The translations under genes were made by a program, and so were the position numbers. A DNA stretch of 64,000 nt from Solirubrobacter pauli (GTDB lineage Bacteria; Actinomycetota; Thermoleophilia; Solirubrobacterales; Solirubrobacteraceae): the NCBI RefSeq assembly GCF_003633755.1, contig NZ_RBIL01000001.1, forward strand, positions 4,077,426 through 4,141,425. The letters are read 5' to 3'. Positions 23,509 through 36,153 of the stretch are shown here, in pieces (the stretch's first letter is position 1; each line of letters starts with the position of its first letter). The notes under the pieces were generated by a model that was given only the letters and a program-made list of their open reading frames with translations, had not been told where the DNA came from and searched no databases.

Positions 23509-24032
23509 TCGAGGTCGCGCCCGGGACGATCGTCGCCGTCCTCGGCCACGACGGCGCGCCCGCGCGGGCCGTCCGGTGCTTCGCCGGCCGCGGCTACGTC
23601 CCGCCCGGGCGGCGCGTGTTCGGCTCCCTGACCGTCGAGGAGAACCTGGCCGTCGGCGCCTACGGCCGGCCCAAGCGCTACGACCGCGTCTACGACCGGT
23701 TCCCGCGCCTGCGCGAGCGTCGCCGCCAGCGGGCGGGCACGCTCTCCGGCGGCGAGCAGCAGCTGCTGGTGATCGCGCGGGCGTTGATGGGGGAGCCCGA
23801 GCTGCTCGTGCTCGAGGACCCGTCGGCCGGGCTCGCCCCGCCCGCGATCCAGGCGGTGGCCGAGGCGATCGCGGGCCTGACGGTGCTGATCGCCGACGAG
23901 CACCTCGCGCTCGCCCGGGCCGCGGCGCAGCGGGTCGTGCTGGTCGAAGGCGGTACGACGATCTTCGACCTGCCACGTGAGGAGGCGTTCGCGGACGTGC
24001 GCCTCGGCTCCGGCTTCCTGTCCTCCGGATGA
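23505..24032 (+). CDS. LivF-like ABC ATPase lacking Walker A
   Basis: 175 residues (LivF is normally about 235), ATG overlapping the upstream stop. It keeps the LivF-type YVPPGRRVFGSLTVEENL segment, a perfect signature LSGGEQQLLVIARALM (from about residue 80) and the switch His (DEHLAL). The P-loop position reads GHDGAPAR with no GKT/S, and the Walker B DE is reversed to LEDPSAG. As in the fused domain, the segment between P-loop and Q-loop is deleted. It probably cannot bind ATP at its own P-loop but can supply a signature motif to its partner. Confidence 0.85.
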   Translation: MIEVAPGTIVAVLGHDGAPARAVRCFAGRGYVPPGRRVFGSLTVEENLAVGAYGRPKRYDRVYDRFPRLRERRRQRAGTLSGGEQQLLVIARALMGEPELLVLEDPSAGLAPPAIQAVAEAIAGLTVLIADEHLALARAAAQRVVLVEGGTTIFDLPREEAFADVRLGSGFLSSG

Positions 24033-24060
24033 CCCTTTCGGACCAGCCCTCCGCGAGGTC

Positions 24061-24097
24061 GGTCACACGGGTCACACCCGCTCGTCTTCCCCTGTAG
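24061..24097 (+). promoter_or_regulatory. Putative ECF-type autoregulatory promoter
   Basis: GGTCAC (24061-24066), 16 bases, CGTCTT (24083-24088), 9 bases, then the ATG of the sigma gene. A second GGTCACA is at 24070-24076. Spacing matches ECF promoters, whose -10 is typically CGTC/CGTT. The same layout occurs before the sigma gene at 27749. Confidence 0.45.
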
Positions 24098-24592
24098 ATG
24101 CACTCGTTCGACGAGCTGTACCTCCGGTACCGCGAGCCCGTCCTCGGCTACTTCGCACGCCGCGTGCGGGACCCCGAGGTGGCGGCCGACCTGATGGCCG
24201 AGACCTTCGCGCGGGCGCTGGTGCACCACCGCACCAACCCGTCCGGGGAACCGGTCGCGTGGCTGCTGGTGATCGCCCGCAACCTGCTGGTGGACAGCGC
24301 TCGCCGCGGGCAGGTCGAGGAGTCGGCACGGCGGAAACTCCACATGGAGCCGCTCGTGCTCGACGACGCCGACCTGCAGCGGATCGAGGAGATCGCGGAG
24401 GCGGCCGACCTGGCCGAGACCGTCCGCGCGACGCTGTCGGCCACGGAGTACGCGGCCCTCCGGGGCCGGGTCGTCGACGAGGAGTCATACGCCGAGCTGG
24501 CGCTGCGGATGCGCTGCTCGGAGGCGGTCGCGCGCAAGCGCGTCAGCCGCGCGATAGCCCACATGCGCACCGTGATCGAGGACGGAAGATGA
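24098..24592 (+). CDS. ECF-type RNA polymerase sigma factor (module 2)
   Basis: 164 residues. Region 2 near the N-terminus: FDELYLRYREPVLGYFARRV, DPEVAADLMAETFARALVH, VAWLLVIARNLLVDSARRG. Region 4 at the end: LSATEYAALRGRVV, YAELALRMRCS, ARKRVSRAIAHMR. No Shine-Dalgarno sequence; the ATG lies 9 bases behind a CGTCTT box, so a leaderless mRNA from its own promoter is plausible. Its stop overlaps the ATG of the giant membrane-anchored partner (ATGA), giving tight stoichiometric coupling. Confidence 0.92.
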   Translation: MHSFDELYLRYREPVLGYFARRVRDPEVAADLMAETFARALVHHRTNPSGEPVAWLLVIARNLLVDSARRGQVEESARRKLHMEPLVLDDADLQRIEEIAEAADLAETVRATLSATEYAALRGRVVDEESYAELALRMRCSEAVARKRVSRAIAHMRTVIEDGR

Positions 24593-27500
24593 GTGACTTT
24601 CTGGACCGCTACGGCGAGGAGCTCAAGCGGGCTCGCCGGCGTCAGCGCTGGCACCGGGTCCGCGGGTTCGGCGGGATGCCGACCCGACAGCGGTCCCGCC
24701 ACCGGACCGCCGTGGTGGCCTTCGGCCTGGCGGCCGTCCTCGCCGCGGTCCTGACCGTCGCGTTCACGCACTCGACGACCCGGGTCTCGTCCAAGGCCCC
24801 CGTGGACGTCGCTTCCGCGGTGCCGCCCGAGAACGAGGCGCTCGAGCACCGCAACGGCTTCACGCCGAACGAGTTCAAGGACTTCCAGCTCAGCTCGAAC
24901 GACACCGTCTCGCGCGCGCAGGTGGACCGGATGAAGGCCCAGGCGGCCGCGGTCGCCCCGGCCGCGGGCGCGGCGGGCCTCCCGTGGAAGCAGCTCGGCC
25001 CGTACAACATCGGCGGGCGCGTGACCGACGTCGTGGCCGACCGCTTCACGCCCAACTCCGCGATCGCCGCGGTGTCCGGTGGTGGCATCTGGAGGACCAC
25101 CGACGGTGGTGAGCACTGGGCATCGATCTGGCCCGACGACTGGACGCAGACGATGGGCGCGGTCGCGCAGGGCGCCGACGGCGCGCTGTGGGCCGGCACC
25201 GGCGAGGCGAACCCGCCGGGCGGCGGCCTGACCTACTTCGGCGACGGCCTCTACAAGTCGACCGACAAGGGCGGCCACTGGACGCGCGTCGGGCTCGAGA
25301 AGAGCGAGTCGATCGGCCGCATCGCGGTCGACCCGAGCAACCCGGACGTCGTCTTCGCGGCGGCCGCCGGTCACGTCGCGCGCAGCGCCGCCCAGCGCGG
25401 CCTGTACCGCACGACGGACGGCGGCAAGACCTGGGACCTCGTGCTCGCGCCGCCGAACAGCACCACCGGCGCCGTCGACGTCGCCATCAACCCGAAGAAC
25501 CCGCGGATCGTCTACGGCGTGCTGTGGGACCACAAGCGCACGAACGGCACGCGCACCTACGGCGGCATCGGCTCCGGCCTGTTCCGGTCCGACGACGGCG
25601 GCACCACCTGGAAGCGCCTCGAGACGATGGCGCCCGGCCAGGCGCTGCCGACCTACGACCAGACGCAGACCGGCCTGAAGGCGGACGCGAGCCTCGGCCG
25701 CATCGGCGTCGCCGTCGCGCCCAGCAACCCGAACCGCGTCTACGTCGTGTTCGGCTCGCCCTACGGTCCCGACAAGGGCTTCTACTACTCCAACGACGGC
25801 GGCGACAGCTGGTGCACGACCGGCGGCACGACCGAGTGCCCGTTCACCGCGGGCCGCGCGTACCAGGCCAACGGCGGCTACCAGTGGTGGTTCGGCCGCG
25901 TCTGGGTCGACCCGGACGACCAGAACCACCTGTTCAACGCCGACGTGTCCCTGCGCACGTCCACCAACGGCGGCGCCACCTGGACGGCGATCAACGCGCC
26001 GCACTCCGACCAGCACGGCATGGACTGGGATCCGGCCTCGCTGGACGGTGACCCGGCGACGCCCAACAAGGTCTTCCTCGGCAACGACGGCGGCGTCTAC
26101 CGCTCCGACGCCAGCGGCGTCAACGGCACGTGGGTGAAGGCGAACAACCAGCCGTGGAACCAGGCCTACCACCTGTCGGTGTCCAAGCAGCGTCCGCGCC
26201 GCCTGGTCCAGGGCCTGCAGGACAACGGCTCGGTGAAGACGTGGACGCCGCAGGCGCAGGTGCCGACCGACCCCGAGCTGCGCGACTGGACGAGCGCGGG
26301 CGGCGGCGACGGCCACCAGAACGCGATCGACCCGACCGACGACAACATCTACTACACGTGCTCGCAGTCGTCCGGCGGCGGCACGCACAGCTGCGGGCGC
26401 CGCACCGACTCCGCGACCGGGACCACGACGGCGAACGTCGCCCAGGTCGGCCCGGCGGGCAGCAACCGCTACACCACCGACGCCCCGATCGTGACCGACC
26501 CGAACGTCCCGCCGGCCGGCGCCGACGGCACTCAGCCGCCGAACGCGCTCTACGTCGCCGGGGCCATCGTCGGCCGGTCGCTGAACCGCGGCACCTCGTT
26601 CAGCGAGATCTCGCCGCGGCCGCTGCCGCAGGCCAACTACACCGATCCCGACCCGTCGCTGCCCGGCCACGTCCCGGCCAGCGAGGTGGACATCGGGCTC
26701 TACACCAACCTCTACGGCGCGGTCACCGCGCTCGCGCCCGCCAAGTCGAAGACCCCCGTCCCGTACGCGCAGGTCATCTACGCGGGCACGGACACCGGCA
26801 AGGTCTGGAAGACGAGCGACGCCGGCGCCAACTGGGTCCAGATGCAGGGGCTGCCCACCCGCTGGGTGAACTCGGTCATCGCCGACCCGGACGACGCCGA
26901 CCACGCGTACGTCGCGTTCTCGGGCTTCCGCGAGGGCGACGACGCGGCCAACGTGTGGGAGACCACCGACGGCGGCGCGACCTGGCTGAACATCTCCAGC
27001 AACCTGCCGAACGGCCCGATCGAGATGCTCGAGTACGACCCGAAGGGCAACGTGCTGTTCGCCGCCACCGACGTCGGCGTCTTCGACCACAAGGACGGCG
27101 ACACGTCCTGGTACACGGTCAGCGTCGGCCTCCCGCAGGTGCCGGTGCTCGACGTCAAGCTCAGCCAGGACGGCAAGTCCCTCTACGCGGCCACGTTCGG
27201 CCGCTCCGTGTGGGAGCTGCCGCTGAGCGTCGACGCCACCGACGGCGGCGGCGTGGGCGGCTCCGTGCCGGCGACGCTCTCGCTCACCCTGGGCGCGCCC
27301 GGCTCGTTCGGCGCGTTCCAGCCGGGCGTGCCCCGCGACTACGCGACGTCGACCACCGCGACCGTGATCTCCACGGCAGGTGACGCGGCGCTGAGCGTGC
27401 AGGACCCGTCCTCGACGGCGCCCGGCCATCTCGTCAACGGCGCGTTCTCGCTGCCGCAGGCGCTGCAGGCGGGTGTCGGCGGGACCTTCGCGCCGCTGTC

Positions 27501-27654
27501 GGCCGCCGCGCTCGTCGTCAAGACGTGGACGGCGCCGACCGCCAACGAGCCGGTCAAGGTCGACTTCAAGCAGTCGATCGGCGCCAACGACGCGCTGCGT
27601 ACCGGCAGCTACAGCAAGACGCTCACCTTCACCCTGTCCACCACGAACCCCTGA
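24589..27654 (+). CDS. Membrane-anchored BNR/VPS10-like propeller protein paired with ECF sigma (module 2)
   Basis: 1,021 residues from the ATG at 24589 (GGAAG upstream). Short basic cytoplasmic tail (MSDFLDRYGEELKRARRRQR), one membrane helix (about 43-62), linker, then about 750 residues of BNR/Asp-box-type units (GGGIWRTTDGGEHW, GLYRTTDGGKTWD, GLFRSDDGGTTWKR, VWETTDGGATW), which in known proteins build large beta propellers binding glycans or peptides. The last 140 residues are a separate module ending GSYSKTLTFTLSTTNP that recurs at the end of the 30067-36153 product. Coupling to the sigma gene suggests sensing or anti-sigma function (inference). Confidence 0.85.
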   Translation: MSDFLDRYGEELKRARRRQRWHRVRGFGGMPTRQRSRHRTAVVAFGLAAVLAAVLTVAFTHSTTRVSSKAPVDVASAVPPENEALEHRNGFTPNEFKDFQLSSNDTVSRAQVDRMKAQAAAVAPAAGAAGLPWKQLGPYNIGGRVTDVVADRFTPNSAIAAVSGGGIWRTTDGGEHWASIWPDDWTQTMGAVAQGADGALWAGTGEANPPGGGLTYFGDGLYKSTDKGGHWTRVGLEKSESIGRIAVDPSNPDVVFAAAAGHVARSAAQRGLYRTTDGGKTWDLVLAPPNSTTGAVDVAINPKNPRIVYGVLWDHKRTNGTRTYGGIGSGLFRSDDGGTTWKRLETMAPGQALPTYDQTQTGLKADASLGRIGVAVAPSNPNRVYVVFGSPYGPDKGFYYSNDGGDSWCTTGGTTECPFTAGRAYQANGGYQWWFGRVWVDPDDQNHLFNADVSLRTSTNGGATWTAINAPHSDQHGMDWDPASLDGDPATPNKVFLGNDGGVYRSDASGVNGTWVKANNQPWNQAYHLSVSKQRPRRLVQGLQDNGSVKTWTPQAQVPTDPELRDWTSAGGGDGHQNAIDPTDDNIYYTCSQSSGGGTHSCGRRTDSATGTTTANVAQVGPAGSNRYTTDAPIVTDPNVPPAGADGTQPPNALYVAGAIVGRSLNRGTSFSEISPRPLPQANYTDPDPSLPGHVPASEVDIGLYTNLYGAVTALAPAKSKTPVPYAQVIYAGTDTGKVWKTSDAGANWVQMQGLPTRWVNSVIADPDDADHAYVAFSGFREGDDAANVWETTDGGATWLNISSNLPNGPIEMLEYDPKGNVLFAATDVGVFDHKDGDTSWYTVSVGLPQVPVLDVKLSQDGKSLYAATFGRSVWELPLSVDATDGGGVGGSVPATLSLTLGAPGSFGAFQPGVPRDYATSTTATVISTAGDAALSVQDPSSTAPGHLVNGAFSLPQALQAGVGGTFAPLSAAALVVKTWTAPTANEPVKVDFKQSIGANDALRTGSYSKTLTFTLSTTNP

Positions 27655-27662
27655 TGGAACCC

Positions 27663-27696
27663 GTGCTCAGAGGCTCACGGACGAGCCTCTGAGCAC
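27663..27696 (+). terminator. 14-bp perfect hairpin behind the propeller gene
   Basis: Stem GTGCTCAGAGGCTC/GAGCCTCTGAGCAC, loop ACGGAC, 8 bases behind the stop. There is no T-tract, but the stem is long and perfect; it separates sigma modules 2 and 3. Confidence 0.65.
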
Positions 27697-27712
27697 ACCC
27701 TCCGACGGCGTC

Positions 27713-27748
27713 CGTCACAGAACGGCCCGTGCCTCGCAATATGGAGGC
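27713..27748 (+). promoter_or_regulatory. Putative ECF-type autoregulatory promoter
   Basis: CGTCAC (27713-27718), 16 bases, CGCAAT (27735-27740), 8 bases, then the ATG at 27749. The geometry matches that before the sigma gene at 24098. GGAGG at 27743-27747 is too close to the ATG to be an ordinary Shine-Dalgarno sequence. Confidence 0.4.
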
Positions 27749-28264
27749 ATGGGTCACGATCCCCTGAGTGATGGCGCCGGCTTCTACCGGCGCCACGAGC
27801 GCGCAGTGGTCGCGTTCGTCGGATCGATGGTGCGGGACCCGGAGGTGACGGTGGACGCCGTCGCCGAGACGTTCGCACGTGCGTACGAGTCGCGGTCGAC
27901 GTACCGGCCCGAGCTCGGCGGAGAACGGGCGTGGGTGCTCGGCATCGCGCGGCACGTCGTGCTCGCCGCGTGGCGGAAGGGCCGCGTGGAGAGCGAGATG
28001 CGCGCGCGGCTCGGCATGCGGACGTTGCGGCCGAGCGCCGAGACGCTCGCGTCCGTCGAGGAGGCCGTGCTCGAGTCGGAGGCCGCGGTCGTGCAGGCGT
28101 GGCTGTCCGACCTGCCGGAGGACCAGCGCGAGGCCGTGCGGCGGCGGGTGCTGGGGGACGAGGACTACGACGCCATCGCGCGGGACCTCGAATGCTCGCC
28201 CGCGGTGGTGCGCCAGCGGGTCAGCCGCGGGATCGCGACGTTGAGAAGGGGGCTCGGGTCATGA
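27749..28264 (+). CDS. ECF-type RNA polymerase sigma factor (module 3)
   Basis: 171 residues. Region 2: FYRRHERAVVAFVGSMVRD, VTVDAVAETFARAYESR, RAWVLGIARHVVLAAWRKGR. Region 4: LPEDQREAVRRRVL, YDAIARDLECS, VRQRVSRGIATLRRG. Start chosen at the ATG 8 bases behind a CGCAAT box. The stop overlaps the next ATG (ATGA). Related to the other two sigma factors in the window but with a Gln instead of Lys in the region-4 recognition helix (VRQRVSRG against ARKRVSRG), so its targets may differ. Confidence 0.92.
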   Translation: MGHDPLSDGAGFYRRHERAVVAFVGSMVRDPEVTVDAVAETFARAYESRSTYRPELGGERAWVLGIARHVVLAAWRKGRVESEMRARLGMRTLRPSAETLASVEEAVLESEAAVVQAWLSDLPEDQREAVRRRVLGDEDYDAIARDLECSPAVVRQRVSRGIATLRRGLGS

Positions 28265-29463
28265 GCCTGATTCCGGAGCTGGAACGCGAATGGGAGCGGG
28301 TGATGCCGGTGCGCCGTGCGCGCAGGACGTTGCGGCTGTCGGTGGCGATCGGGGCGGCGCTGTTGTGCGGCGGGACGGCGGCGCTGGCCGCGACCGGCGT
28401 GCTGCAGGTGCCGATCGGCTCGCCGGCGGACGACGAGCTGCAGCTCAAGCCCGACGAGGGCATCGGCACGCTCACGCCGGGCGGCGCGCGGGTGCTGGCG
28501 GTCCAGGCCGAGGACCCGGACGGCGGGCCGCCCTGGGGCCTGCAGGTCTCGATGACCACGCGCAAGCTCGGCTGCCTGCAGGCGGCGCGGATGCAGGACG
28601 GCCGGCTGGGCGTCTTCGGCCGCGACGGCGCGTTCGACGACGACGGCAAGTTCCATCCGTTCGCCGACGGCGGCATCGGCCACCGCGTGTCCTGCACGCA
28701 GCTGGACGCCAACGGCCGGCTGATCACCAACGTGGTCGCCGGCGGGCTCGCCGCGAGTGCCAGTCCGAAGGGGGAGTGCTACGCGCCGCAGTTCACGAGG
28801 GGTGTGCCGAAGGACCAGCTGTGCGATCCCCAGGCCATCCGGATCCTCTACTTCGGGCTGCTCGGCCCGGAGGCGAAGAGCATCGTCGCGCACGGCAAGG
28901 AGATCCCGACGACCGGCCCCGAAGGCGCGTACCTGCTCGTGGACCGGATCGGTGACAGCGGCGCCGGCGGCATGGGGAGCGGGACCCTGTTCCCGACGAG
29001 CTCGCCGATCACCGAGGTCCGCTTCAAGGACGGCTCCTCGTGCGCGATCAAGCCGAGCGGGGCGGACGAGGCGTGCGTGAACCCGGGCTACGCCGCGCCG
29101 CCCGAGTCGACGCTCACCGAGGCGGACGTCAAGTCCAAGATCACCGTGCGCAAGACGAAGGGCAAGCGTGGCCACCGCTGGAAGGTGCGGGTCAGCTTCC
29201 GGGCGCCCGTCGCGATCCCGGACGCGGGCTCGGCGTACTCGATCTACCTGTCCGTACCGCCGAACACGCAGCGCCATCGCGGGATCGGCACGTCCACGTT
29301 CAAGAACCTGAAGGCCGGCGAGACGGTCACGTTCACGTTCAACTCCCTCGGCGGCCACGGGCGCTATCACGGCACGGTCCGCTACGGCCGCGTGAACGGG
29401 ATGTTCGGCACACCGGCCCGCGACGGCCTCGAGGTCGGCAAGGTGTCGTTCCGGCTGCCCTAG
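28261..29463 (+). CDS. Single-span membrane protein paired with ECF sigma (module 3)
   Basis: 400 residues, ATG overlapping the sigma stop. Cytoplasmic tail MSLIPELEREWERVMPVRRA, one membrane helix (about 25-45), then an ectodomain of about 350 residues with cysteines in RKLGCLQAARMQDGRLG, RVSCTQLD, KGECYAP, DQLCDP, SSCAIK and DEACVN, and an Ig-like C-terminal domain (SYRxGRVNG-like: TVRYGRVNGMFG). No catalytic or zinc anti-sigma motif. Same topology and gene order as the other two modules, with an unrelated-looking ectodomain. Anti-sigma or sensor function is inference. Confidence 0.78.
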   Translation: MSLIPELEREWERVMPVRRARRTLRLSVAIGAALLCGGTAALAATGVLQVPIGSPADDELQLKPDEGIGTLTPGGARVLAVQAEDPDGGPPWGLQVSMTTRKLGCLQAARMQDGRLGVFGRDGAFDDDGKFHPFADGGIGHRVSCTQLDANGRLITNVVAGGLAASASPKGECYAPQFTRGVPKDQLCDPQAIRILYFGLLGPEAKSIVAHGKEIPTTGPEGAYLLVDRIGDSGAGGMGSGTLFPTSSPITEVRFKDGSSCAIKPSGADEACVNPGYAAPPESTLTEADVKSKITVRKTKGKRGHRWKVRVSFRAPVAIPDAGSAYSIYLSVPPNTQRHRGIGTSTFKNLKAGETVTFTFNSLGGHGRYHGTVRYGRVNGMFGTPARDGLEVGKVSFRLP

Positions 29464-29496
29464 GAACCGCGCGCACCGGTCCGGTGTACTCCCGAC

Positions 29497-30024
29497 ATGC
29501 GCGCCCTCGCCCTCGCCGGACTCATCGCGCTCGCCACCGCGGCGGACGCGTCGGCCGCCACGTTCGACCGCACCTGTGAGACGCACGCCGAAGGCCCGGA
29601 CCCCGACGAGATCGTCAAGCCGGACGCCCGCCGAGACCTCGTCGTCGGGCGGGTCATGCTCCTCAACGTGCGCGCCGCCGGCCGTGAGCTGCCGACGTAC
29701 AAGAGCCGCGACCGGTACCTGATCAAGACGCCGGTGATCATCCGGACCGGCGCTCCGGTGGTCGTGCGGGTCGCCGAGCGGGACCGCAAGCACGTCGCGC
29801 TCAACTTCGACGCGAGCGACCAGCGCCGCGGCCAGCACAGCGTGCGCTTCCATCCGTGCCCGCCGGACACGGAGCGCTTCAGCGACGGGAAGCCGCTCGG
29901 CGAGTGGACCGCCTATCCGGGCGGGCTCATCCTCCGGCGCCCGCGCTGCGTGACGTTCGAGTTCCTGGAGGAGGGCAAGCCGACGGTGCGGCGGCGCGTC
30001 GCGCTCGGCAAGCGCTGCCGCTGA
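29497..30024 (+). CDS. Small secreted protein, unknown
   Basis: 175 residues with a signal peptide of about 21 residues (ADASAATF). The mature domain is beta-rich and basic with four cysteines (DRTCETH, FHPCPPD, PRCVTFEF, GKRC-R), probably two disulphides; it contains YKSRDRYLIKTPVIIRTG and LGEWTAYPGGLILRRPRC. No family recognised. It lies 33 bases behind module 3 in the same direction; a CACCGG/CCGGTG palindrome (about 29474-29487) lies in the gap. It ends 1 base before a strong hairpin. Confidence 0.72.
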   Translation: MRALALAGLIALATAADASAATFDRTCETHAEGPDPDEIVKPDARRDLVVGRVMLLNVRAAGRELPTYKSRDRYLIKTPVIIRTGAPVVVRVAERDRKHVALNFDASDQRRGQHSVRFHPCPPDTERFSDGKPLGEWTAYPGGLILRRPRCVTFEFLEEGKPTVRRRVALGKRCR

Positions 30025-30050
30025 GGGCCGCGGCGTCTCCGCCGCGGCCC
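30025..30050. terminator. Bidirectional terminator between convergent genes
   Basis: Perfect 11-bp stem GGGCCGCGGCG/CGCCGCGGCCC with loop TCTC, starting right behind the stop at 30024 and 17 bases from the stop of the minus-strand gene. Serves both convergent genes. Confidence 0.7.
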
Positions 30051-30066
30051 CGCGTGCATCAGGCGC

Positions 30067-33000
30067 TTACGGTGTCGTGGTCGACAGCGTGAACGTCAGG
30101 GTCTTGCTGTAGGTGCCGCGGCGCAGGCCGTCGCCCTCGGCGATCGGCTGCTTGAACGCCAGCGGCACGGACTGCGTGCCGAACGGACCCGTCCAGGCCT
30201 TCAGCGTGGTCGGCGCGGCGGAGCCGCCGACCGGCGCGTCGTTGACCTGCAGGGCCTGCGGCAGCGCGAACGCGCCGTTGACGAGCTTGCCCGTGTTGGT
30301 CGTGTCCGCGTCGGACACGGTCAGGCGGGCGTCGCCGGCGGAGGAGGTGACCTTCGCCTCCGCCGTGGTGGTGTAGTCCTTCGCCACGCCCGGCATGAAC
30401 GTGCCGAGGCTGATCGGCCCCGTGAGGTTCAACGCCAGCACGCCCGGAACCTCGCCGCCGATGACGACGGGCACCTGGGTGCTGCTCGCGCGGACCTTGA
30501 TCACGAGCTCCTTGACGGCCTCGACGAGCCCGGCCTGGTCGGTCGAGCGGTAGCGGATCGTGTGCTCGCCCTCGGGCGCCACGAACGGCGCCGTGTAGGT
30601 CTGCCACGCGCCGCCGTCGATCGCGAACTCGGTCTTGGCGACGCCCGAGCCGGTCCCGTCGGTCGCGGCCAGCGTGATCGTCGGAGCCGCCGCGTACCAG
30701 CCGTCCGCGCCGGGCTGGGCCGAGGCGGTGGCCGTCGTGACCGGCGCCTCGGTGTCGGCCGCGCCAATGCGGAAGTACTCGAAGTCCACGTCGATCGGGG
30801 CCGCCTGCGCCGGGCCGATGCCCATCAGGCCGATCGCCGGGTTGCTCAGGGCGACCGTCACCGACCCGGGCGACTGCACCCAGGTCGTGCCGTCCGCGCT
30901 GATCGCGCCGGTGTAGGTGTTGCCCTTCTTGGTCAGGCGCAGCCACCACGTGTCCGTGGCGGACGCGGGCGGCTCGATGTCACCCGCGCCGGTGGGACCG
31001 AAGGCCCCGCCGCCGTTCTCGCCGCGCAGCTCGACCCGTCGCACCTTCGCGGCGCCCGGGTCGTTGTCGGCCACGACGTCGTACTTGACGTAGTGGTCGA
31101 CGTCGCTGAACAGCATGAAGCCGGCCAGCTGCCAGGCGTCGCCGAGCGGCGCCGTCATCTTCGTCTCGGCCACCCAGTCGCCGCTCGGCGGCGTCTGGAG
31201 GATGAGGTTCTCGATCGGCCCGTTGTCGGCGCCGCTGATGTCGGCGTCGAACGTGCGGATGCGGAGCTTGCCGTCGACGAGCTTGACGCGGTTCGAGTTC
31301 CAGCCGTGGATCTTGTCCCAGCGGCAGCCGTCGATCGAGGTGCCGTCGAACTCGTCGTTCGCGGCCGGCTTCGGCTTCGCCTCGTCCGGGGTGACCCGGA
31401 ACCAGTCGAAGGCCGCGGTCTTGTTCTGGGCGTCGGTGTCACCGGCGGCGAGCAGCCCGATCGAGCTGTTGGCCTTCAGCGGCGCAGTGGCGCCCATGTT
31501 CGTCCAGTCCGTGCCGTTCGTCGAGTAGGCGCCCGTCAGGGTGCCGTTCGCGTTCGTCAGGCGCAGGTGGATCGTGGCGGGGTGGTCCGTGGCCACGTAG
31601 GCGTTGCCGCCGTGCGCGGTCCGCGAGCCGTTCGTCTCGGTCCAGAACTCCACGAAGCGCCGCCCGTCCTGATGGCGGGTGAACGAGAGCTTCGTGTAGT
31701 TGTCGTCGTCGACGTGAAGCACGAGGCCGGCGTACTGCCAGTAGTTGTCGTGGTCGAGCGTCACCTTCGTCGTCGCCTGCCAGTTGCCGGCGGGCGTCTT
31801 CTGGGCGACGTGGGAGACGGGCGCCGTGTTGGCGCCGTCGATGTCGCCGTTGGTCACGGCGAGGTTGAGCGCGCCGTTCGTGACGGCGGGAGCGCTCGCG
31901 GCCGGGCCACGGGCGGTCGTCCAACGCGCGCGGTTCAGCGCGCCGTCGAACTCGTCCGAGGCTGTCGGCGCGCAGCCCGGAGCCGGCGTCGTCGGCTCCT
32001 CGGGCTCACCCGGGACCTCCGGGTCGGTGTCGAGGTTCCAGTTGGTGAACTTGGCCGTCGCGCGCGTCCCGCTGATGTGCGAGACGACGAACAGGCCGAT
32101 GTCCTGCGTGGTCGTGGCCGCGGGGATCGTCGTCGTGACGCCGACCTGCGTCCACTCGGTGCCGTTGCGTGAGCAGTAGACCGAGAACTGCTTGCCGAAC
32201 TTCTCGACCTTCAGCCACGTGGGCGCGCTGCCCGTGCCACAGCCGTTGGCCACCGGCTCACCCGAGTCGTTGACCTGGCCGTTGCCGCCGGCGTCGTGCA
32301 TGAACTCGGCTTCGCCGTTGCCCTTCTCGCCGATGACGAGGTAGCCCTTGTTGTCGTTGCCGCCACCCTGCGGGATCTGGTTGCGGACGATGATGCCCGC
32401 CTTGCCGCTCGCGTGGGTGCCGTCGAACTCGGCCACCTTGACGGTCGCGACGAAGTTCTCGCCGACACCGCCCGGCAGGTAGACCGCGCCGAACTCGTTG
32501 GCGGCCTGCCACAGGTCCGCGCCGGCGGCGGACACGGTGAACTCGTCACCGACCTTGTCGAACGCCGCGTCGACGTTCGCGAACGTCTCCCACGGCGGGC
32601 GGACGCCGGACTCGCCGACCGAGAAGCGCACCTTGCGCGAGTCGTTCGTGAGGCCCTTGCTGTTGGTGGCGACCGCGTGGACGGCGTAGAACTTCTCCGT
32701 CGTCTGGTTCCACGTGGTGGTGTACGGCGCGGACGTGTCCTCGCCGATCTTCTGCCCGTCGACGAAGAACTCGACCTTCGTGATCTGGTTCTCGGCGTCG
32801 GTGGCGTCGGCCGTGAAGGTCACGGCGCCGGGCGTCACCGCGGCGTTCTCCGTCGGGGCGGTGATCTTCACCGTGGGACGGGTCTCGGGCGAGAGGCCCT
32901 TGCCGTTGACCTCGAAGAAGTTCAGCCGGAAGTTCGCGGTGCCCTTGAACACCAGGAACAGGCTCATCGAGGCCTTGTCGGCCGGCGCCGGGATCGTGAC

Positions 33001-36000
33001 GTCGGTCCAGCGGTTGACGCTGCCCGTGGCCGGCACGGTGGCCGTGCCGAGCAGCGCGCCCTCCGGGCTGTCCTTGCGCAGCTCGATCGAGCCGCCCGCG
33101 GCCTGGGCCGCGACGCGGAACGTGATCGAGTCGATGCCGGTGAAGTTGACGGGCTCGTAGGACGCCCAGTCACCGTTGCTCAGGTTGCTCAGCGCGGAGG
33201 TGCCTTCGGCGTCGCCGGAGGCCTCGGCGGTGTCGGTGCCGAGGCGGCCGTCGGCGTGCTCGGCCTCCTTGCGCTTGGGCTGCAGGACGATCGTGTCCGT
33301 GCCGGTGAGCGCGGGCACGTCGCCGTCGCCCTTGTCGGTGTAGCGGGCGTCGAGCGCGAAGAACACCTTCATGTCCTCCGAGTGGCCCGTGCCCAGGTCG
33401 GTCACGACCGAGCCCGTCTTGCCGCGGTACTCGAGCAGCGGGTGCGCGTGGTCGTCATGGCCGAGCGCCGGCTGGACGATCAGGTTCTGGTAGTCGACCG
33501 TGTCCTCGGCGTCGGTGACCTCCACGTCCCAGTTCACGCGGTCGCCCCACTCGACGAAGCCGCCGTTCAGCGGCCCCTTGAACTTCACCGTCGGCTTGGT
33601 GTTGCCGACCGTGACCAGCACCACCGTCGTGCCGGTCTTGCCGGCCGGGTCGGTGACGGTCAGGCGCGCCTGGTAGACGCCCGGCGTCGTGTACTGGTGC
33701 GTCGGGTTGGCGAGCGTGGAGTCGGTGGTCCCGTTGCCGTCGAAGTCCCACGCGTACGTGAGCGCGCCGCCCTCGGGGTCGGACGAGCTCACGCTCGAGA
33801 ACGTGACCGTCAGCGGCTCCTGGCCGTTGTCGGGCGTGGCCGTCGCGGACGCGATCGGCGACCGCGAGCCGTTGATGTAGTCGATCCGGTAGATGCCGGA
33901 GTTCGGGTTGTCACGGCCGTAGCCGCCGCCCCACTCGAGCGCGTACAGCGAGCCGTCCGGGCCGAACGACAGCGACTGCGGCGCCAGGAACGACGTGTTC
34001 GGCATGAACGGGTTGACCTTCTCGACCTTGCCACCCTCGCCGAGCTGGACGGTCCAGACCTTGTTGCGGGCCCAGTCGTAGTAGAAGGCCTTGCCGTCGT
34101 AGGAGGCCGGGAACTTCGTGTCCGACGTCGAGGCGGCGTTGTAGTCGTAGAACGGGCCGCCCATCGGGGCCAGGCCGCCGCCCGCGGCGATCGCCGGCAC
34201 CGACGTCTTGCGGTAGCCGTACCACATATCCGGCGCCTTGGCCGGCGGCAGCTCACGCAGACCCGTGTTCTTGATCGAGTCGTTGATCGGCTTGGCGCAG
34301 TCGAAGAACGGGCCGACCGTGGGCGTCGGCGTCATGTAGTCGACGTCGCGGAACGGCTCGTTGTTGCCCATGCACAGCGGCCAGCCGTAGTTGCCCGGCT
34401 CCTTGATGATGTTGTACTCGACGATGCCCGCCGGGCCGCGGGTGGCCGGGGCGTCGTTGGAGTTGTCGGGCGCGTAGTCGGCGACGCCGATCCAGCCCGT
34501 GTTCGGGTCCACCGAGAACTTCCACGGGTTGCGGAAGCCCATCGCGTAGATCTCGGGGCGGGTCTTCTCGGTCCCGACCGGGAACAGGTTGCCGGCGGGG
34601 ATGTCGTAGCCGCCGTCGGCCTTCGGCTTGACGCGCAGGATCTTGCCGCGCAGGTCGTTCGTGTTGGCCGACGTCTCGCGGGCGTCCCACATGCGGTCGG
34701 CGCGCTCGGAGAGCGGGGCGTAGCCGCCCGACGGCTCCGAGTGCGGGTTGACGTCGTCGCCGACGCCGAGCAGCAGGTTGCCCTGCAGGTCGAAGTCGAG
34801 GTTGCCGCCGGTGTGGCCGGGCTCGTCGGGCTCGCGGGAGGCGGGGACCTCGATGATCAGCTTGGCCGACGCCGGATCGATCGTGCTCGTGGCGTCGACG
34901 GTGAAGCGCGTGACACGGCTCTTGAAGTTGGCCGGGTCGCTGTTGTTGGACGAGTTGGGCGCGTGGTAGACGTAGACCCAGCCGTTCTCGGCGAACTTCG
35001 GGTCGAGCGCGATGCCCATCAGGCCGTCCTCACCGCCCGAGTAGACGTTCAGCGTGATCGCGGTCTTGACGCTCCTGGTCTTCGGGTCGTAGACGCGGAT
35101 CTGGCCGCGCACGAGCTCGGTGAAGAACACGCGGCCGTCCGGCGCCACGTCGAGCGCGAACGGCGCGCTCGTGTTCTCGTCCAGCGCGACCTTCTCGAAG
35201 TTCGAGTTGATCGTGCCGCCGCAGTCGCCGGCCTCGACACCCGCGGCCCACTTGACGCCGCCGATGATGTGCTGCAGGAGCGCGGGCTCCTGGAAGTGGG
35301 CGCCGAAGTGGCCCATGCCCGTCACCCAGGCGCGACCGCCGTCGTACGGCTTGCACCACGAGATCGGGTGGTCGTACCCCATCTTGTTGCCGCCGGCGTC
35401 GTAGGTCGACTCGTCGAGCGACAGCAGCACGTGCGCGTTGCCGCGGACGTTGGTGGCGAAGTTGTACCACTCGTCGTTGCGCGTCCAGCGGTCGGCCAGC
35501 GGCTGCGTCGACGGGTGCGCCTTGTCCTCGCGGATGACCTGCGCGGTCAAGCCGCCGACGCCCGAGCTCCATGGCGGTGGATCACCCGCGGGCGGGGTGC
35601 TGCCGGTCGCGGCGTGGCCCGGCATGAGCGAGCCGATCAGGTCGTCCCACCACTTGTAGTTGCCGCGCATGTCCGTCGCGTTGTGGATGGCGACGATGCC
35701 GCCGCCCGCGCGCTGGTACTTCTCGAGCGCGACCTTCTCGGCCGCGGTCCACGGATCACCCGACGTCTGGAACATCACCAGCGCGTCGAAGCGGGCGAGG
35801 TCCGCGTCGTTGAAGATCGACGAGTCCTCCGTGTGCTCGGACGTGACGCCGGCCTGCTCGAGCGCCGCGCGCAGCAGCGGGGTGCCGTTCGTGATCGCGT
35901 CCGTGTGCCGGAACGCGGCCGTCTCCGTGAAGACGAGCACGTGCGCCGGCGCGGCCGGCTGCTTGAGCTCCGCCAGCGGCGCGGTCGACGCCCATCCCGG

Positions 36001-36153
36001 AGTGCTTGCGCCCATCAGGGCCGCGGCGTTCATCGCCGGGGCGTGCGAGTGCGCAGCGCCCGTGTCGTGTGCCTGTGCGGAGCCCGCCAGGACCCCCGCG
36101 CACGTTGCTGCCAGCACTGCGCCCTTGAGCGCAGTTCTCCCGATCCTTCTCAC
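30067..36153 (-). CDS. Giant secreted ThuA / PQQ-type sugar dehydrogenase / PKD / CBM multidomain protein
   Basis: 2,028 residues; GTG at 36153 with GGAGGAGAG upstream. Signal peptide to about 28. Modules: ThuA (about 70-310; VLVFTETAAFRHTDAI, GGGIVAIHNATD, WVTGMGHFG); glucose/sorbosone dehydrogenase-like propeller (about 312-758; GLMGIALDPKF, EIYAMGFRNPWKFS, YGWPLCMG); PKD (about 763-851; YAWDFDGNGTTD); CBM6-like (about 960-1083); Ig-like (about 1090-1170); three concanavalin-like DUF1349-type modules (about 1188-1373, 1403-1583, 1601-1794); an OmpL47-like domain (about 1798-1885); and a C-terminal module shared with the 24589-27654 protein. Likely extracellular glycan binding and oxidation. 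ThuA-dehydrogenase fusions are known; this length and number of lectin-like modules are large. Confidence 0.88.
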   Translation of the reverse strand: MRRIGRTALKGAVLAATCAGVLAGSAQAHDTGAAHSHAPAMNAAALMGASTPGWASTAPLAELKQPAAPAHVLVFTETAAFRHTDAITNGTPLLRAALEQAGVTSEHTEDSSIFNDADLARFDALVMFQTSGDPWTAAEKVALEKYQRAGGGIVAIHNATDMRGNYKWWDDLIGSLMPGHAATGSTPPAGDPPPWSSGVGGLTAQVIREDKAHPSTQPLADRWTRNDEWYNFATNVRGNAHVLLSLDESTYDAGGNKMGYDHPISWCKPYDGGRAWVTGMGHFGAHFQEPALLQHIIGGVKWAAGVEAGDCGGTINSNFEKVALDENTSAPFALDVAPDGRVFFTELVRGQIRVYDPKTRSVKTAITLNVYSGGEDGLMGIALDPKFAENGWVYVYHAPNSSNNSDPANFKSRVTRFTVDATSTIDPASAKLIIEVPASREPDEPGHTGGNLDFDLQGNLLLGVGDDVNPHSEPSGGYAPLSERADRMWDARETSANTNDLRGKILRVKPKADGGYDIPAGNLFPVGTEKTRPEIYAMGFRNPWKFSVDPNTGWIGVADYAPDNSNDAPATRGPAGIVEYNIIKEPGNYGWPLCMGNNEPFRDVDYMTPTPTVGPFFDCAKPINDSIKNTGLRELPPAKAPDMWYGYRKTSVPAIAAGGGLAPMGGPFYDYNAASTSDTKFPASYDGKAFYYDWARNKVWTVQLGEGGKVEKVNPFMPNTSFLAPQSLSFGPDGSLYALEWGGGYGRDNPNSGIYRIDYINGSRSPIASATATPDNGQEPLTVTFSSVSSSDPEGGALTYAWDFDGNGTTDSTLANPTHQYTTPGVYQARLTVTDPAGKTGTTVVLVTVGNTKPTVKFKGPLNGGFVEWGDRVNWDVEVTDAEDTVDYQNLIVQPALGHDDHAHPLLEYRGKTGSVVTDLGTGHSEDMKVFFALDARYTDKGDGDVPALTGTDTIVLQPKRKEAEHADGRLGTDTAEASGDAEGTSALSNLSNGDWASYEPVNFTGIDSITFRVAAQAAGGSIELRKDSPEGALLGTATVPATGSVNRWTDVTIPAPADKASMSLFLVFKGTANFRLNFFEVNGKGLSPETRPTVKITAPTENAAVTPGAVTFTADATDAENQITKVEFFVDGQKIGEDTSAPYTTTWNQTTEKFYAVHAVATNSKGLTNDSRKVRFSVGESGVRPPWETFANVDAAFDKVGDEFTVSAAGADLWQAANEFGAVYLPGGVGENFVATVKVAEFDGTHASGKAGIIVRNQIPQGGGNDNKGYLVIGEKGNGEAEFMHDAGGNGQVNDSGEPVANGCGTGSAPTWLKVEKFGKQFSVYCSRNGTEWTQVGVTTTIPAATTTQDIGLFVVSHISGTRATAKFTNWNLDTDPEVPGEPEEPTTPAPGCAPTASDEFDGALNRARWTTARGPAASAPAVTNGALNLAVTNGDIDGANTAPVSHVAQKTPAGNWQATTKVTLDHDNYWQYAGLVLHVDDDNYTKLSFTRHQDGRRFVEFWTETNGSRTAHGGNAYVATDHPATIHLRLTNANGTLTGAYSTNGTDWTNMGATAPLKANSSIGLLAAGDTDAQNKTAAFDWFRVTPDEAKPKPAANDEFDGTSIDGCRWDKIHGWNSNRVKLVDGKLRIRTFDADISGADNGPIENLILQTPPSGDWVAETKMTAPLGDAWQLAGFMLFSDVDHYVKYDVVADNDPGAAKVRRVELRGENGGGAFGPTGAGDIEPPASATDTWWLRLTKKGNTYTGAISADGTTWVQSPGSVTVALSNPAIGLMGIGPAQAAPIDVDFEYFRIGAADTEAPVTTATASAQPGADGWYAAAPTITLAATDGTGSGVAKTEFAIDGGAWQTYTAPFVAPEGEHTIRYRSTDQAGLVEAVKELVIKVRASSTQVPVVIGGEVPGVLALNLTGPISLGTFMPGVAKDYTTTAEAKVTSSAGDARLTVSDADTTNTGKLVNGAFALPQALQVNDAPVGGSAAPTTLKAWTGPFGTQSVPLAFKQPIAEGDGLRRGTYSKTLTFTLSTTTP

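Follow-up and report, generated by a model that had tools for sequence, protein, structure and literature searches.

A WxL-like C-terminal module that probably docks secreted enzymes at the cell surface in Solirubrobacter

The window analysed here, a 64,000-nucleotide stretch of Solirubrobacter pauli DNA (contig NZ_RBIL01000001.1, positions 4,077,426 to 4,141,425 of the forward strand), encodes two large proteins on opposite strands that share a C-terminal module. The first carrier (24589 to 27654, + strand) has, by Pfam and a hydrophobicity scan, an apparent N-terminal cytoplasmic tail and transmembrane-like segment, a VPS10/BNR propeller and the module; its open reading frame spans 23977-27654, with the ATG at 24589 as the likely start. 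The second (30067 to 36153, - strand) consists of a signal peptide, ThuA, GSDH, PKD, CBM_6, Big_7, GH43_C2/DUF1349, an OmpL47-type domain and the module. The initial annotation of this DNA claimed that the two ends match closely behind unrelated domains, and both parts of that claim hold: 63 of 125 residues are identical by BLASTP (50%, E 2e-36), the local alignment score is 313 against a mean of 36 and a maximum of 67 for 1000 shuffles of the second module, and what precedes is a propeller in one protein and ThuA-GSDH-PKD-CBM6-GH43_C2 in the other. A length of about 135 residues was also proposed; the two proteins are alike from about VGGSVPATL (27253) up to the stop codon, and the conserved unit, from VPATLSLTLG to the stop, is shorter, at about 127 amino acids. 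In the propeller protein this 127-residue module lies at 27271 to 27651 (+), with the VGGSVP lead-in from 27253, as delimited by BLASTP, genome search and an AlphaFold2 model; in the ThuA/GSDH/CBM6 protein it lies at 30070 to 30438 (-), by BLASTP and genome search. The terminal strand motifs read GSYSKTLTFTLSTTNP (27604 to 27651, +) and GTYSKTLTFTLSTTTP (30070 to 30117, -), each directly followed by a stop codon.

The two modules first noticed are two of about 108 in the same genome (7.1 Mb, 4 contigs; search with the correct-strand query), so that the original observation understated the case. In all 106 copies fetched, the stop codon directly follows the terminal proline of ...TLTFTLSTTxP, and a simple, crude hydrophobicity scan assigned a signal-peptide-like or signal-anchor-like N-terminus to 105 of the 106 carriers; two small proteins (C2:842445 and C2:413965) have no part other than a signal peptide and this module. 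The module was found in 432 confirmed stretches from S. soli, S. taibaiensis, S. phytolaccae, S. deserti and Ca. S. pratensis, ending at the stop in 74/74 distinct loci of other Solirubrobacter, and copy numbers in five other congeners, with at most 150 scored per genome, are 107, at least 147, at least 149, 69 and at least 150. Among 396 genomes of the phylum, matches were confined to the same family, and within 121 family genomes the module occurs in 7/7 congeners and in 7 more genomes outside the genus with just 1-3 copies each. The constant C-terminal position and the restriction to one lineage, both suspected at the outset, are thus borne out. One copy (C1:43956-44129, L039) has lost its middle while keeping both ends and an open frame.

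WxL domains are believed to fix proteins to peptidoglycan (PMC9772566), and in Enterococcus a hairpin strand of the WxLIP protein is predicted by AlphaFold2 to fill a gap in the WxL domain and complete its beta-sandwich (PMC10599100). A partner of comparable type accompanies the module. Outside the genus, the module gene adjoins a gene for a secreted protein of about 260 amino acids with two immunoglobulin (Ig)-like halves (A6), which among the family genomes is present in 13/14 of those with the module and in 3/107 of the others, two weak matches (E ~1e-3) having been left out of the count; the association has a Fisher probability of 8e-14, or 2e-7 without the genus, uncorrected for kinship. 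In the three genomes with A6 and no module (G398, G457, G471), small WxL-like genes lie directly beside the partner, and the module genome that A6 missed (G400) has a diverged, transmembrane-anchored Ig protein at the same place. The own genome has a cluster at C2:411386-415186 in the order LWACHGP protein, partner, small module protein, partner. Partners of another class, transmembrane-anchored and related to the first at E 1.4e-9, are encoded immediately downstream of a module gene of the purple acid phosphatase type (own C1:208634-209434, L171, L201, G432), and in G459 the neighbour directly downstream of the module gene passes the PF06030 (WxLIP_PGBD) cut-off with 32.8 bits. WxL domains are characteristically encoded beside a WxLIP (DUF916-DUF3324-transmembrane helix), and such a neighbour was found in G459, at own C1:208634-209434 and in other genera. 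The co-occurring gene for which the initial annotation called thus took the form of a dedicated WxLIP-like Ig partner, and not of a protease, sortase or secretion gene.

Two further observations concern these neighbourhoods. A secreted family of about 450-520 amino acids with the motif LWACHGPxGQ and no Pfam match often adjoins the Ig partner and module genes (L234 6386-7954; L226 7399-8808; L225; L229; L231). Small WxL-like genes with a partner also lie next to smpB in L224, L227 and L247, with an RNase R-like gene nearby in L224 and L227, which suggests that the system may have had an ancestral chromosomal locus there.

The module matched no sequence in Pfam, NCBIfam or PDB in single-sequence and profile searches. 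The AlphaFold2 model, from a 57-sequence alignment, has a pLDDT (predicted local distance difference test) of 94.3 and is an all-beta, pilin-like beta-sandwich; as modelled, the module is a folded domain without a transmembrane segment. The closest PDB structures are archaic donor-strand pilins, CsuA/B 7zl4 (Z 9.2, root-mean-square deviation 3.7 over 122 aligned residues) and 6fm5 (Z 9.0, 2.6 over 117), followed by FimG (Z 8.0), CupE (Z 8.0) and TLP-1a (Z 7.8), and the top Foldseek E is 3.6e-3. These matches raise the alternative that the modules are themselves pilin-like subunits, loaded by a two-Ig-domain chaperone as incomplete Ig folds into donor-strand fibres that display enzymes, with the small module-only proteins supplying part of the filament. 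Besides the nearest solved folds, which are donor-strand pilins together with TLP-1, such a proposal could draw on the small secreted module-only proteins beside partner genes and on the two Ig-like domains of the partners; moreover, the terminal strand of the module alternates polar and hydrophobic residues, as do chaperone-bound pilin strands. However, a Z of about 9 is merely moderate for an all-beta fold, no PDB sequence match to pilins was found, and a fibre requires free N-terminal donor strands, whereas these modules are C-terminal. The fold match is a moderate one that shows arrangement and not function. A pilus of this kind appears unlikely.

The same model bears on whether the module is a C-terminal sorting signal in the style of type IX secretion system (T9SS) C-terminal domains (CTDs) or PEP-CTERM, removed by a dedicated protease or transpeptidase. 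An invariant C-terminal position and terminal motif on many unrelated cargos are what such a signal would present, but the module is predicted to be well folded along its whole length, its end (...TFTLSTTxP) lacks both the LPXTG and the PEP-CTERM recognition motif, a transmembrane helix and a basic tail, and the gene that co-occurs with it encodes an Ig-type WxLIP-like protein. A cleaved signal was accordingly rejected for want of a transmembrane segment and of a co-occurring enzyme, and is considered very unlikely. Of the 'sorting or anchoring signal' proposed in the initial annotation, anchoring is therefore retained as the probable part, and the cleaved sorting peptide is not.

When 96 carriers were scanned against Pfam without their modules, the matches were mostly to extracellular degradative proteins: peptidases of families M14 (12), S15 (6), M1 (5) and M64, along with GH10, GH67, GDPD, amidases, esterases, and phosphatases of the alkaline and purple acid types; ThuA (15 altogether), GSDH (12), CBM_6 and PKD are also present. 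That many carriers act on polysaccharides and include CBM_6 or GH43_C2 would be in keeping with a carbohydrate- or ligand-binding module merely placed last, with no tie to anchoring. Such a role is extremely improbable, given that peptidases, phosphatases and amidases are also among the cargo, that exact C-terminality is unusual in carbohydrate-binding modules, that the module is linked to WxLIP-like genes, and that no known ligand-binding family was matched by sequence in any of the three databases.

What then relates the module to WxL domains is a chain of comparisons through its small relatives. At the position of the module's AGDATLSVxD, these carry SWTLTVSD, SWTLSVND, SWTLSIRD or GNWTLRASE, and in one of them the last strand contains TWDL as well. 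The module aligns with the tryptophan-bearing small proteins by hhalign at E 2.5e-15 over 116 columns, and homology links actinobacterial PF13731 domains with Firmicute WxL at E 2.5e-13; compared directly by profile with Firmicute WxL, the small WxL-like proteins gave no significant match. In genomes of the family that lack modules, true WxL genes often adjoin WxLIP genes. A hidden Markov model built from module partners finds those WxLIPs at E 1e-13 to 1e-7 and the neighbour of the HtaA-WxL protein of L293 at E 5e-43; over all its matches to neighbours of genuine WxL genes, E spans 5e-43 to 1e-6. WxL domains of the family end in GTYTSTWTFSLVSGP where the module ends in GTYSKTLTFTLSTTxP. Comparison of module and WxL profiles became informative only once WxL domains of the same family were added; the combined profiles, aligned end to end over 139 columns, then scored 22.9, whereas 150 block-shuffled decoys had a mean of 4.8, a standard deviation of 2.9 and a maximum of 15.0 (0/150 above), and the reversed profile scored 7.1. 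As WxL domains always are, the module is the C-terminal domain of secreted proteins in 106/106 and 74/74 cases, with signal peptides in 105/106. Canonical WxL and WxLIP pairs, with the same WxL ending, are also present in several other genera of the family (L329-L343), of which no description was found. A literature search found no paper mentioning Solirubrobacter together with WxL, and a WxL search of viral contigs found none.

Together, these data favour the reading, given a probability of about 0.72, that the module is a docking domain of WxL descent, without the tryptophans, by which WxLIP-like partners retain secreted enzymes on the cell surface; partner binding, strand complementation, wall attachment and surface anchoring are the parts of this reading that we infer. 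The carrier would be exported by Sec or Tat, and the module would then adopt its pilin-like beta-sandwich fold on the outside of the cell envelope. WxLIP-like proteins, with two Ig-like domains and in some cases a C-terminal transmembrane helix, would hold the folded module, probably by strand complementation and in addition by binding to the wall, and the module would stay uncleaved on its carrier. In Solirubrobacter, secreted hydrolases, oxidoreductases and propellers of unrelated kinds, some 70 to more than 150 in number, would have acquired the domain by fusion, and both WxL tryptophans would have been lost. Partner-assisted docking at the wall is the most likely role by analogy, because the module occupies the same slot at the C-terminus, has the same type of partner and is predicted to have a pilin-like fold.

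Several points weigh against this reading. Module and WxL match weakly in local hhalign comparison (probability 16-19%, E ~1e-3, 1.6e-3), and among the module-WxL comparisons the global score against decoys appears to be the convincing one; since the local scores are weaker, the probable descent from WxL rests on several agreeing lines of evidence and not on one test. The W-x-L tryptophans are absent at both positions in the 106 own modules, in which the sole tryptophan-rich column (67/106) sits mid-domain, and PF13731 is silent, with no match in the own genome at E<=10 and none to WxL for 74 modules scanned against Pfam. The module thus falls outside the dual-tryptophan definition and below the Pfam cut-off, and it is therefore not counted among WxL domains, but as a WxL-like variant that probably acts in the manner of one. 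Just five partner genes were found for the approximately 108 own modules, most of which have no adjacent partner gene. With so few genes serving so many modules, the partner would be a shared receptor, or a folding or transfer chaperone. Finally, the AlphaFold model of a WxLIP-like partner is poor (pLDDT 50) and gives no basis for a complex.

Compared with the Bacillota WxL (PF13731)/WxLIP (PF06030/PF11797) system, the module shares a C-terminal position on secreted proteins, a beta-sandwich, an end strand resembling YxxTxTxTLxxxP, 'small' domain-only and 'large' multidomain forms, WxLIP-type neighbours, and relatives that keep W-T-L at motif 1. Unlike that system, it lacks W-x-L motifs and PF13731 detection, its cargo consists of degradative enzymes and not of host adhesion proteins, and in place of small clusters there are about 70 to more than 150 dispersed modules with few partner genes. 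Actinobacterial WxL and WxLIP clusters (the HtaA-WxL of L293; G186; L329-L343) have the same gene order and the same WxLIP-like neighbour, and HtaA cargo occurs with both WxL and module; the WxLs in those clusters, however, keep the first tryptophan motif, match WxL profiles and are few per genome. The predicted fold and two-Ig-domain partner recall CsuA/B, from which the module differs in having no detected sequence similarity, in its place at the C-terminus of enzymes and in its Gram-positive-type lineage. As with T9SS CTDs and PEP-CTERM, one C-terminal module is found on many unrelated secreted proteins per genome, but with no sign of cleavage, no transmembrane segment, other partner genes and another lineage.

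A probable surface-display system is thereby named for a common, little-studied soil genus through a domain that neither Pfam nor NCBIfam covers, and the module provides a genome-wide tag predicting the Solirubrobacter surface degradome. WxL/WxLIP would extend from small host-adhesion clusters of Bacillota to an enzyme display system of more than 100 members, the domain would be able to lose its name-giving tryptophans, and WxL docking would be linked structurally, in testable form, to donor-strand pilins. More speculatively, and on balance doubtful, more than 100 enzymes could bear WxL-derived pilin-like ends captured by WxLIP-like strand insertion in a general form of donor-strand display; if so, strand insertion would be a single mechanism behind both WxL anchoring and the assembly of chaperone-usher pili. 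The compact C-terminal tag could also be worth trying for display.

Two minor points concern the window itself. An antisense query of 27240-27660 gave 91 matches down to E 3e-19, which are antisense frames of the same GC-rich genes; this is a caution for readings based on open reading frames, as the antisense of a repeated GC-rich domain yields many seemingly significant matches. At the start of the propeller carrier, an ECF (extracytoplasmic function) sigma factor gene (24098-24592, +) overlaps position 24589 by ATGA, and another pair of sigma factor and membrane-protein genes, arranged alike, is found at about 27.7-29.46 kb; it is possible that the membrane holds some carriers at both ends.
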